From the NCBI RefSeq assembly GCF_003605575.1, contig NZ_QKNY01000018.1, positions 248,001 to 312,000 on the forward strand: a stretch of DNA of 64,000 bases. Reading direction: 5' to 3'. Positions 56,696 to 62,634 of the stretch are shown piece after piece (positions within the stretch are counted from its first letter, which is position 1; each line of letters opens with the position of its first letter). The position numbers and the translations under genes were made by a program. Source of the DNA: Halonotius aquaticus (GTDB taxonomy: Archaea; Halobacteriota; Halobacteria; Halobacteriales; Haloferacaceae). The notes under the pieces were generated by a model. The model searched no databases. It was not told where the DNA came from and was given only the letters and a program-made list of their open reading frames with translations.

Positions 56696-57727
56696 ATGGC
56701 TGAGGATGAACTCGAAACGCTGCCCGGTGTCGGGCCGGCAACCGCGGACAAACTCGTCGACGCAGGATACGACAACTACCAGAGCATCGCCGTCGCCTCC
56801 CCGGGCGAGCTCTCGAATCAGGCCGATATCGGCGACAGCACGGCCAGCGACATCATCAACGCCGCCCGCGAGGCCGCCGATGTTGGCGGCTTTGAGACCG
56901 GCGAAACGATCCTCGAACGCCGCCAAGAGATCGGCAAGCTCTCCTGGCAGATCGATGAGGTCGACGATCTCCTCGGTGGCGGGATGGAAACCCAGTCGAT
57001 CACCGAGGTCTACGGTGAGTTCGGTGCGGGCAAATCCCAGGTCACCCACCAGATGGCCGTCAATGTCCAACTGCCGCCCGAACAGGGCGGGCTCCGCGGC
57101 TCGGCGATCTTCGTCGACACCGAGGACACGTTCCGCCCCGAGCGGATCGACGACATGGTGCGCGGCCTCGACGACGAGATCCTCCAGGCAACGCTTGACG
57201 ACCGCGAGATGGAGGGCTCAATCGACGACGAGGAGACGATGGAAGCCCTCGTCGCCGACTTCCTCGATCGGATTCACGTCGCCAAGGCGTTCAACTCCGA
57301 CCACCAGATCCTGCTGGCCGAGAAGGCCAAGGAGCTCGCCGGCGAACACGAAGACAGCGAGTGGCCCGTCCGGATGGTCTGTGTCGACTCCCTAACAGCG
57401 CATTTCCGCGCCGAGTACGTCGGCCGCGGCGAGCTCGCCGAACGCCAACAGAAACTCAACAAACACCTCCACGACCTGATGCGGATCGGCGATCTCTACA
57501 ACACCTCGATTCTCGTCACCAACCAGGTCGCCTCCAACCCTGATTCCTACTTCGGCGACCCGACCCAGCCGATCGGTGGCAACATCCTTGGCCACACCTC
57601 CACGTTCCGGATCTACCTTCGCAAATCGAAAGGCGACAAGCGGATCGTCCGGCTGGTCGACGCGCCGAACCTCGCCGACGGCGAGGCCGTCATGCGCGTC
57701 CAAAATGAAGGCCTGAAACCAGAGTAA
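56696..57727 (+). CDS. radA: DNA repair and recombination protein RadA
   Basis: The archaeal Rad51/RecA recombinase that forms filaments on DNA. It is 343 residues. The N-terminal helix-hairpin-helix domain (about 1-65, [20 protein letters not shown]) is followed by Walker [10 protein letters not shown] (107-115), then the Walker B and L1/L2 regions with [20 protein letters not shown] and [20 protein letters not shown]. The last 8 codons and stop are duplicated just downstream. Confidence 0.96.
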
Positions 57728-57749
57728 CTGAAGGCCTGAAACCAGAGTA
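57706..57749 (+). repeat. 23-base tandem duplication at the radA 3' end
   Basis: TGAAGGCCTGAAACCAGAGTA occurs at 57706-57726 and again at 57729-57749 with an AC spacer, a period of 23. The first copy encodes the RadA end EGLKPE and its stop; the second is untranslated. Replication slippage is the simplest explanation. Confidence 0.9.
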
Positions 57750-58147: not shown

Positions 58148-59839
58148 ATGACAGATCTAGCCACAGCGGTCGAAGCGATCAACAACACATGGATCCTGAC
58201 GGTATCGTTCCTGATCTTCTTCATGCACGCGGGCTTCGCCATGCTCGAAGCAGGGCAGGTTCGCTCGAAGAACGTCGCAAACCAGCTTACGAAGAACATG
58301 CTGACGTGGGCCGTCGGCGTCACCGTGTTCTTCCTCATCGGCACCGGGTTCAGTAGCCTCATGACCGGCGGCGGCTTCTCGCCCGCTGCCGGTGCCGGCG
58401 GCTACGTCGGCTGGTTCTACGGTGCTGTCTTCGCAATGACCGCCGCGACGATTGTGTCGGGCGCAGTTGCCGGCCGCGCGAAACTCCGCGCCTACATCAC
58501 CTACACGTTCCTGCTGGCTGCAGTGATCTACCCGATGGTCATTGCGATGACGTGGTCGGCTCCCTCGGGAGCGGGTATTACCCAACTGCTCGGCCTTCCC
58601 CGGTTCGCTGACTTCGCCGGCGGCATGATCGTCCACGGCATGGGCGGTATCGCCGGCCTCACGGCCGCCGCGATCCTCGGCCCGCGGATGGATCGCTACA
58701 GCGAGGACGGCTCGCTGAACGTCATCCCCGGTCACTCGATGACATTCGCCGTTCTCGGCACGCTAATGTTGTGTTTCGGCTGGTACGGCTTCAACGTCGG
58801 TACCGCCGGAGCGTTCGATCTCGGTGACGGTGCCAACACGCTGAGCCTCATCGTCATGACGACGACGATCGCCATGGCCACGGGCGCGATCGGTGCAGCC
58901 GGCGTTGCCTACCTCAAATCCGGCAAGGTCGATACGCTGTACACCGCAAACGGAATGCTCGCCGGACTGGCCGGCATCACCGCGATCACGAACACCACCA
59001 GCTGGTGGGGGGCCATCGTTGTTGGCCTCCTCGCTGGTGCGCAGCTCCCCATCGTCTTCGAGTTCGTCTCGGAGAAACTCAAGATCGACGACGTCTGTGC
59101 GGTCTTCCCGGTTCACGGTAGTGCAGGCGTGCTCGGCACGCTCCTGATGCCGTTCGTTGCCGTGCCGGGAGTCGTTGACTCGGTTGTCAATCAGTTCCTC
59201 GCACAACTCGTCGGTGTCGTCATCATCGGCGGCTGGACGCTCACCGCGACCGCGATCATCTGGTACGTGTTCAAAGCGATGGGTGAGGCACGCGTCACCC
59301 CCGACCACGAACAGGATGGCCTCGACCTCTCCGAACACGGCGTCGAGACCTACCCCGAGTTCGGTGGCGACCGCGTTGCCACCGACGGCTTCGGCCCAAC
59401 TGACGACGAGGAGATCCGCACTGACGGCGGCAGCGAGGATGTCGAACTCCGAACCGACGGCGGCCGTGAGGTTCGCACCGACGGCGGCGAAGAGGCCGAT
59501 CTGAAGATGGTGTTCTCGGTCGTCCGCCCAGAGAAACTCGGTGACGTCAAGAAGGCCCTCGCCGAGGTCGGCGCGCCCTCGCTGACGGTCACCAACGTCT
59601 CCGGTCGTGGCAGCCAGCCCGCCAAGAAAGGCAGCTGGCGCGGCGAGGAGTACACGGTCGATCTCCACCAGAAGGTCAAGATTGAGTGTGTCGTCGCCGA
59701 TGTCGACGCCGAGGAGGTTGCCACCGCGATCAAGGAGGCAGCCGCCACCGGCGAGCCGGGCGACGGCAAGATCTTCATCCTCGATGTTGAGGACGCGATC
59801 CAGGTGCGGACAGGCAAGGAGGGTACCGAAGCGGTCTGA
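58148..59839 (+). CDS. amt: Ammonium transporter fused to a P-II regulatory domain
   Basis: A 563-residue fusion. Residues 1 to about 385 form an Amt/Rh-type ammonium channel with about 11 helices ([60 protein letters not shown]). A linker (about 390-450) repeats RTDGG three times. Residues 452-563 are a P-II/GlnK domain: [21 protein letters not shown]-loop [18 protein letters not shown] with Tyr502 at the usual modification site, and the nucleotide motif [20 protein letters not shown]. So the regulator that normally binds Amt is tethered to it. Confidence 0.95.
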
Positions 59840-61446: not shown

Positions 61447-62634
61447 ATGTCATCAACCACGACCGTCAGACTCGCAACGCGGGGCTCAGAACTCGCCCGC
61501 CGGCAGGCGACGACGGTCAAATCCACGCTCGACTCCCGACGCCGGGAGGTGACGCTCACCGAGGTCGACACCCGGGGCGACCAGATCCGCGATGAGCTGA
61601 TCCACCGCCTCGGGAAGACCGGCGCATTCGTCCGGGCGCTCGACGAGAAAGTCCTTGACGGCGACCTGGATGCCGCGGTGCACTCCCTGAAGGATATGCC
61701 GACCGAGATGCCGGCCGACCTCGTCGTCGCCGCCGTACCCGAACGCGCGCCGTCCGGCGACGTACTCGTCACACCCGATGGCGGCGATATCGACGACCTC
61801 CCAGAGGGCGCGGTCGTCGGCACAAGCTCGCTCCGCCGGAAGGCCCAACTGCTGGCCGCCCGCCCGGATCTGGATATCGTCGCCCTCCGGGGCAACGTCG
61901 ACACCCGCCTCGAAAAGCTGCTCGCGCCATCGTTGCAGCGGGAACACCAGGCGCGACTCGAAGCGGTCGGCAAACTCGACGAGATCGTCGGCGATGCGGC
62001 CGCTGTCGTCGACAGCGGTGACAACGCTGCCGACGACGACAACGCCAACGACGCTGACAACGATGACGCGGACTACGACCGCTCACCCGAGGAGTGGTTC
62101 AACGATCTCACCGATCTCGAACGCGACGCGATGGGTCGAAAGGTCGACACCGAGATGGATGCGATCGTCCTTGCGGAAGCCGGCCTGCGGCGCAGCGACC
62201 TGCTCGAGAGCGTCCCAACCCACCGGCTGCCCAGAGAGCAGTTCGTCCCCGCACCCGGCCAGGGCGCGATCGCGGTCACCGCCGTCGACGACGACGTAAT
62301 CGACCAGCTTCGGGAGGTCGTCGATCACCCCCGCAGTCGGATCGAAACAACCGCCGAACGGACGGTGCTGGCTGAACTTGGCGGTGGCTGTATCGCGCCG
62401 ATCGGCGTGAGCGCGATCGTACAAGGCGAATACGTTCACACACGCGCGCAGGTGCTTGGCCCCGACGGCGAAGAGACCGTGGAGGCGACCCGTGATCTAC
62501 CGATCACCGATCACGCCGCAGCCGCCGCAGACTTCGCCGCCGACCTCCGGGAGCGTGGTGCCGCCGAGTTGATCGAGGCCGCCGAAACCGCGGCGACCGC
62601 AGACACGACAGGAACCCGGGAGGACAATGGCTGA
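61447..62634 (+). CDS. hemC: Hydroxymethylbilane synthase with acidic insert
   Basis: Polymerises four porphobilinogen molecules to hydroxymethylbilane. It is 395 residues against about 310 for the bacterial form. N-terminal LATRGSELARRQATTVKSTL, DAAVHSLKDMPTEMPADLVV and VVGTSSLRRKAQLLAARPDL are classical. The dipyrromethane-binding Cys is in AELGGGCIAPIGVSAIVQGE. Residues about 180-236 are an acidic Asp/Asn/Ala insert between GKLDE and MDAIVLAEAGLRRSD. A further tail of about 30 residues follows. It overlaps cobA by 8 bases. Confidence 0.94.
   Translation: MSSTTTVRLATRGSELARRQATTVKSTLDSRRREVTLTEVDTRGDQIRDELIHRLGKTGAFVRALDEKVLDGDLDAAVHSLKDMPTEMPADLVVAAVPERAPSGDVLVTPDGGDIDDLPEGAVVGTSSLRRKAQLLAARPDLDIVALRGNVDTRLEKLLAPSLQREHQARLEAVGKLDEIVGDAAAVVDSGDNAADDDNANDADNDDADYDRSPEEWFNDLTDLERDAMGRKVDTEMDAIVLAEAGLRRSDLLESVPTHRLPREQFVPAPGQGAIAVTAVDDDVIDQLREVVDHPRSRIETTAERTVLAELGGGCIAPIGVSAIVQGEYVHTRAQVLGPDGEETVEATRDLPITDHAAAAADFAADLRERGAAELIEAAETAATADTTGTREDNG
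62619..62623 (+). promoter_or_regulatory. Shine-Dalgarno site of cobA
   Basis: GGAGG lies 3 bases before the cobA ATG at 62627 and inside the hemC end, which supports coupled translation. A similar GGGAGG (63407-63412) precedes hemD by 5 bases. Confidence 0.55.

Follow-up and report, generated by a model that had tools for sequence, protein, structure and literature searches.

P-II proteins are the textbook diffusible messengers of nitrogen status. In Halonotius aquaticus, a P-II (GlnK) protein and an Amt ammonium channel are encoded by a single gene, which raises the question of how a messenger came to be tied to one of its targets and what it would do there. We examined this gene in the window, that is, the whole stretch of 64,000 nucleotides analyzed here (contig NZ_QKNY01000018.1, positions 248,001 to 312,000), and compared it with its relatives. 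We consider it probable that the gene encodes the cell's sole Amt-type ammonium channel together with its own tethered P-II regulator, and that it derives from an overlapping, coupled amt-glnK pair that merged.

Channel and regulator in one reading frame

The gene and its parts, in window coordinates, are the following.

58148..59839, plus strand: fused amt-glnK gene, ATG to TGA, 563 amino acids plus stop (Pfam and genome profile searches)
58190..59353, plus strand: Amt channel domain, residues 15-402 (PF00909, 317 bits against a cut-off of 23.2)
59354..59500, plus strand: tail or linker, residues 403-451, predicted to be disordered (pLDDT below 50 at 398-449; dN/dS 0.075-0.11, from few changes)
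59417..59431, plus strand: RTDGG copy 1, residues 424-428 (sequence)
59450..59464, plus strand: RTDGG copy 2, residues 435-439 (sequence)
59474..59488, plus strand: RTDGG copy 3, residues 443-447, nearest to the P-II domain (sequence; glycine codons GGC GGC, with no Shine-Dalgarno motif)
59501..59836, plus strand: P-II (GlnK) domain, residues 452-563 (PF00543; best solved relative 4ozj over residues 447-563, by phmmer)
59609..59665, plus strand: T-loop, residues 488-506 (GlnK 37-55), with R498 (R47) and Y502 (Y51) (sequence)

Translation of the open reading frame yields one uninterrupted frame with exactly the ends of the original prediction, which had described a single protein made of a channel, a flexible linker of about 60 residues with three RTDGG repeats, and a complete P-II domain with its T-loop tyrosine and nucleotide site. 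All of these parts are present. The channel matches the PF00909 profile over the whole domain and carries the twin histidines H163 and H323, the phenylalanine gate F95 and F215, W136, and D155. These positions are invariant in 137 aligned haloarchaeal Amts, bar one masked or missing row. The roles of the twin histidines, the gate, and W136 are those given in the accessible part of PMC5764959. The domain falls short of the TIGR00836 (NCBIfam) subfamily cut-off (325.7 against 343.3 bits).

The PF00543 match extends over residues 453-557 and profile positions 2-102 of 102, with 94 bits against a cut-off of 25. GlnK numbering is the window residue minus 451, in the register of the phmmer matches, so that Tyr51, Arg47, Lys58, and Gln39 correspond to Y502, R498, K509, and Q490. 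The T-loop, taken as GlnK 37-55, and the nucleotide and 2-oxoglutarate site, with residues assigned as is usual for P-II proteins, are represented by R498, Y502, Q490, K509, G535, and G538-K541. Counted from the EHG conserved in the Amt tail up to the VVRP motif of P-II, the linker measures 62 residues, close to the length first proposed; between the two Pfam matches it measures 50 residues (403-452). An AlphaFold single-chain model built on 28 aligned fused sequences, that of the window among them (mean pLDDT 79, pTM 0.70), runs from the Amt helices through a segment of pLDDT below 50 at residues 398-449 to the strands and helices of P-II, consistent with the proposed flexibility. The best 50 Foldseek matches of the fused protein are all Amt, Mep, and Rh chains and are uninformative on its P-II part. 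Against two congeners, dN/dS is 0.03-0.07 for P-II, 0.075-0.11 for the linker (from few changes), and 0.14-0.18 for Amt, and by these ratios the linker and P-II are under purifying selection in Halonotius.

Profile searches of the H. aquaticus genome (2.47 Mb, 98% complete) returned one P-II, one Amt, and one glutamine synthetase; neither a second Amt nor the separate P-II gene that the original prediction proposed to look for was found in it. The neighbors of the fused gene, a Rad51-family gene upstream that we read as radA and genes for a class III aminotransferase and porphobilinogen deaminase downstream, include none linked to nitrogen uptake. By eye, a 20-base direct repeat can be seen at the 3' end of radA (copies at 57707-57726 and 57730-57749). 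An acidic insert of low complexity, composed largely of D, N, and A, interrupts the porphobilinogen deaminase frame (window 61447-62634).

This domain architecture is probably listed in protein databases. We found no description of an Amt-P-II fusion in the open-licence literature; reviews of P-II in subscription journals may mention one. None is described in the accessible parts of PMC3831643, PMC10710835, PMC11001197, PMC12918730, PMC11218638, and PMC5764959, the last of which records, in that part, that Amt modules have been observed in combination with other domains. An Amt in Halonotius is mentioned in PMC6719526, in whose main text the words GlnK and P-II are absent.

Recurrence of the fusion and co-inheritance of its parts

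The fusion recurs across the haloarchaea, and a genome that carries it usually has no separate P-II gene. In a set of 60 genomes, made up of the window's and those of 59 relatives, P-II is present in 52: 30 have the fusion, 21 have split pairs only, and one (G034, locus L110) looks frame-shifted. The fused P-II is the only P-II in 27 of the 30 fused genomes, the exceptions with an additional free P-II being G004, G025, and G047, and in 23 of 25 at a completeness of at least 90%. We considered L110 (genus g4) as a genuine split sister of the fused locus L105; it has neither an overlapping start nor a Shine-Dalgarno motif and is best read, from its sequence, as a frame-shifted fused gene. All five genomes of the window's genus are fused in the same single frame, one of them with a masked stretch in the Amt part, which excludes a frame error; split genes in very close relatives were not encountered within the genus. 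A congener shows several partial Amt matches (G002:C37:106380-107324), one within a 2606-residue frame, perhaps an effect of masked stretches.

Fused species include Halonotius pteroides, Halonotius terrestris, Halohasta litorea, Natrinema altunense, Natrinema ejinorense, Natronomonas gomsonensis, Halorubrum aquaticum, Haladaptatus halobius, Haladaptatus pallidirubidus, Halostella pelagica, Natronorubrum texcoconense, and Haloarcula pellucida; split pairs occur in Haloferax gibbonsii, Haloarcula vallismortis, Halomicrobium katesii, and two Halorientalis. Our counts of fused genes rest on the fully listed 60-genome set and on fetched loci. Diversity guided the choice of the latter and, in the last batch, frame length did so in part; the 96 fused genes among 172 Amt records examined therefore do not represent a frequency. 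Among 80 loci taken from the matches listed, 28 are fused (three of them from Clostridia), 41 encode Amt and P-II separately, and 11 have Amt only. No fused locus occurs among 19 loci of the same phylum outside the order, which were taken non-randomly from the best-scoring P-II rows, and among the matches listed every P-II from outside the order is in a frame of at most 343 amino acids. The view that Amt and GlnK are separate in most archaea thus holds for the loci sampled outside the order (0 of 19 fused) but not within the haloarchaea (30 of 52 fused).

The Clostridia loci (L212, L214, L215) bear out the statement that such fusions exist in some bacteria. They share the domain order and have 43-58 residues between the domains, but they are only 34-38% identical to the haloarchaeal protein, lack the RTDGG tail, and have VPV in place of EEY around Tyr51. 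The clostridial fusion is probably separate from the haloarchaeal one. Elsewhere, the Amt of Halanaerobacter jeridensis sits in a 995-residue frame (L218:2414-5398), perhaps joined to another domain.

The two states have changed repeatedly. A quick Amt tree with SH-aLRT supports only, built on 156 rows of which 92 are fused and 64 split, requires at least 17 changes of state, at least 10 of which are forced by branches with SH-aLRT of at least 95. Excluded from the 172 records were 10 that are neither fused nor split (nine without a readable partner, eight of these cut by the end of the fetched sequence, and one frame-shifted) and six fused or split records that are cut or short. Fusions occur in both haloarchaeal Amt clades, in 84 of 116 rows of the window's clade and in 8 of 40 rows of the other, where they lie in at least two well separated places on the tree. 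An earlier Amt tree gave 10 changes, seven of them forced, with L110 scored as split and the total perhaps one too high. In a 136-row set, the outgroup (14 of the 24 Amts from the 19 loci outside the order) does not form one clade; 22 fusions are needed if fissions are barred and the root is split, and free counting gives 14 changes with a split root and 16 with a fused root. Given that the outgroup loci are split, we tentatively take fusion to have been the commoner direction. The P-II tree was unresolved, two of its rows are fragments, and it plays no part in these counts. Among the matches listed in a P-II search of 243 haloarchaeal genomes (completeness at least 90%), frames are mostly uniform within a genus.

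The same 243 genomes were searched for Amt, and 229 have both proteins, 14 have neither (the identical genomes in both searches), and none has one alone. The 60-genome set agrees, with both in 52, neither in eight, and one alone in none. Because the 14 genomes without Amt and P-II are spread over eight genera and four families, several separate losses are likely. Since P-II is never found without Amt in this sample, its indispensable task here would seem to be the channel. This co-inheritance, together with the presence of glutamine synthetase in all 14 genomes lacking both, suggests that P-II is in effect a channel subunit in haloarchaea. In two of the 229 genomes (G063 and G086), Amt and P-II alike are matched only weakly or in pieces, which may point to genes in decay; several others (e.g., G166, G194, G209, and G241) have two P-II matches and one Amt match.

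Split pairs and the loss of the glnK start signal

Overlap with the amt stop is the rule for the first candidate glnK start of split pairs, being seen in 61 of 65 usable cases: in 31 an ATG lies 5 bases before the amt stop, 26 have ATGA, and four overlap in other ways. A Shine-Dalgarno-like motif lies 8-22 nt upstream of this start in 52 of the 65. Overlapping gene pairs of Haloferax volcanii show translational coupling that depends to a varying degree on a Shine-Dalgarno motif, and reinitiation can take place without one (PMC6728339, in its accessible part; the words amt and glnK are absent from its main text). Only three of 96 fused genes combine such a motif with an in-frame start, and we therefore conclude that the signal for a separate GlnK has been lost in the fused genes.

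The linker itself is not peculiar to the fusion. The RTDGG repeats were originally put forward as a feature of the fusion linker, a reading that we rejected on finding that split Amt proteins have the same kind of tail; the repeats are therefore an old Amt tail, common to split and fused proteins, and the fused copies use other codons. The DGG glycines are encoded by GGA-GGN in 19 of 62 last split copies, in two of 43 earlier split copies, and in three of 221 fused copies (last split against fused, Fisher 2e-11, a value overstated in that copies share ancestry). Because of these GGA-GGN codons, the last DGG of the Amt tail can be recognized as the glnK Shine-Dalgarno motif in part of the split pairs. 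RTDGG copy 3 of the window, next to P-II, parallels in position this last DGG next to glnK. Linkers of fused genes range from 27 to 83 residues.

Split pairs such as those of Haloferax gibbonsii (L192) and Haloarcula vallismortis (L203) thus resemble the fused gene in tail, P-II, and gene order, and differ in that the genes are separate, mostly overlapping at stop and start and with a Shine-Dalgarno motif inside the Amt tail, and that GlnK is free. The fused gene probably arose from an overlapping amt-glnK pair under translational coupling, when the overlap of stop and start was lost and the Amt tail became the linker. Mixed arrangements are also seen. In Halorarius litoreus (L184:3-4171), a split amt-glnK pair is followed about 700 bases on by a fused amt-glnK gene, and one or two extra free P-II frames follow fused genes at L080:3959-6861 (minus strand), L178:4368-4874, and L188:4246-5007, as if a diffusible P-II had been regained.

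Proposed action of a tethered P-II

Arg47 is the pore-plugging residue of E. coli GlnK. It is conserved, like Lys58, in all 84 fused and all 58 split P-IIs compared; Tyr51 is found in 82 and Gln39 in 83 of the 84 fused sequences, and both residues are found in all 58 split ones. The AmtB-GlnK systems of E. coli (PDB 2ns1 and 2nuu) and Haloferax mediterranei (AmtB1 with GlnK) consist of the same two families and share with the fused protein Arg47, Tyr51, the nucleotide-site residues, and the conserved Amt C-terminal region; in haloarchaea, the genes are adjacent. They differ in being two proteins that associate reversibly, whereas in the fused chain P-II cannot leave and the stoichiometry is fixed. 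In H. mediterranei, GlnK joins AmtB in membranes after an ammonium shock and activates glutamine synthetase in vitro (PMC3831643, accessible part). This activation weighs against a purely captive P-II, which would have to act on glutamine synthetase from the membrane or forgo this role.

We envisage that three Amt subunits would form a trimer, with their three P-II domains united in a single P-II trimer underneath. At low 2-oxoglutarate, that is, with nitrogen plentiful, the T-loops would plug the three pores from inside with Arg47; when ATP and 2-oxoglutarate are high, the T-loops would refold and release the pores while the P-II domain stayed tethered. With a chain model of our choosing, linkers of 27-83 residues and spans of 0-5 nm give an effective concentration of 0.6-7.6 mM. 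The tether would keep P-II at a roughly millimolar local concentration, so the level of free P-II should not matter for control; the fused domain would reach its channel immediately, leaving ligand state as the sole determinant. With the affinity of a free P-II, the tethered domain might hold the channel shut permanently unless that affinity were tuned. We saw no clear change of this kind; compared with split P-IIs, fused ones favor T5 and T52 and mostly lack H82, trends that run in the expected direction in more of the nine independent pairs than not, a number too small for significance.

Other explanations differ widely in their prospects. That a frame error or misassembly joined two genes has a negligible chance of being correct: a merged amtB2-glnK2 annotation of H. 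mediterranei was indeed termed a misannotation (PMC11218638, accessible part), and the relative L110 carries a frame-shifted version, but we reject this explanation in view of the 96 fused genes among 172 Amt records, the five genomes of one genus, and the low dN/dS across the junction. A serious competitor, to which we nonetheless grant less than an even chance, is a neutral ratchet, in which coupled genes with an overlap are readily joined into a protein that acts as the free pair does, with no new regulation. The change recurs at an already existing overlap, known functional residues are alike in fused and split P-IIs, and strict co-inheritance implies that little is lost by tethering, all as a ratchet would have it; purifying selection on the linker and P-II in Halonotius argues against it, as do the mostly uniform frames within genera (among the matches listed) and the persistence of split clades, as if the states were held. 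It seems rather unlikely that the fused chain is cleaved, or an internal start used, such that free GlnK still reaches glutamine synthetase. GlnK does activate this enzyme in Haloferax (PMC3831643, accessible part), the window protein has an in-frame ATG at residue 454, and H. volcanii reinitiates without a Shine-Dalgarno motif (PMC6728339, accessible part). Yet a motif with an in-frame start is found in only three of 96 fused genes, a junction with no stop codon would offer no terminating ribosome for reinitiation, and residue 454 falls within strand 1 of the P-II fold in the AlphaFold model. The idea of a channel without a diffusible P-II accordingly agrees with the gene content of the window's genome, but proteolysis or an internal start could still supply free GlnK, and fused G004, G025, G047, L178, and L188 have extra free P-II genes, which speaks against a purely captive P-II, as do the genomes of the wider set with two P-II matches and one Amt match.

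It is very unlikely that the Amt part is an ammonium receptor with P-II as its output domain, as in sensor Amt proteins. The best solved relatives are two such proteins, Ks-Amt5, an Amt-histidine kinase (175 bits), and Sd-Amt1 (164 bits), with lower scores for yeast Mep2 (104 bits), Af-Amt1 (103), and E. coli AmtB (about 91). Like the fused protein, both combine an Amt module with a C-terminal extension, and E34, N50, and T101 equal three of the seven Ks-Amt5 ammonium-site residues (PMC5764959, accessible part). However, the output of Ks-Amt5 is a kinase rather than P-II, and the other four residues, Q24, D50, T51, and T112, are replaced by H27, T53, W54, and S104 in all 110 Amts of the window's clade. 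Of the acidic pair E31 and D50, only the first is retained, as E34; of the bulky pore residues F27, Y30, and F34, only F30 is, the pore-blocking Tyr and Phe having given way to L33 and Q37. Nearness to the sensors is by itself undiscriminating, as a member of the other, mostly split clade scores equally near them (178 and 168 bits). Since the protein is the only Amt of its genome, the domain is more likely a transporter than a sensor. In the other clade (e.g., L063:2551-3984), 27 of 27 sequences have Q, E, N, and D at four Ks-Amt5 sites, including Q27 and D53 in window numbering, and these Amts may be receptors or may preserve an ancestral ammonium site; the two clades of this 137-sequence comparison were divided by identity to the window (52%), before the last batch of loci.

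Returning to the channel with its own tethered regulator, it is unlikely, if appealing, that P-II signaling in fused lineages has become wholly membrane-bound, the trimer plugging the channel in one state and, once released, drawing glutamine synthetase to the channel mouth in the other. If this were true, one captive sensor would switch both the entry and the capture of ammonium. The haloarchaea present a natural experiment in which a messenger is either tethered to a single target or separate from it, with no change in its known functional residues. Supported branches of the Amt tree show that this experiment has been repeated through at least ten changes of state.
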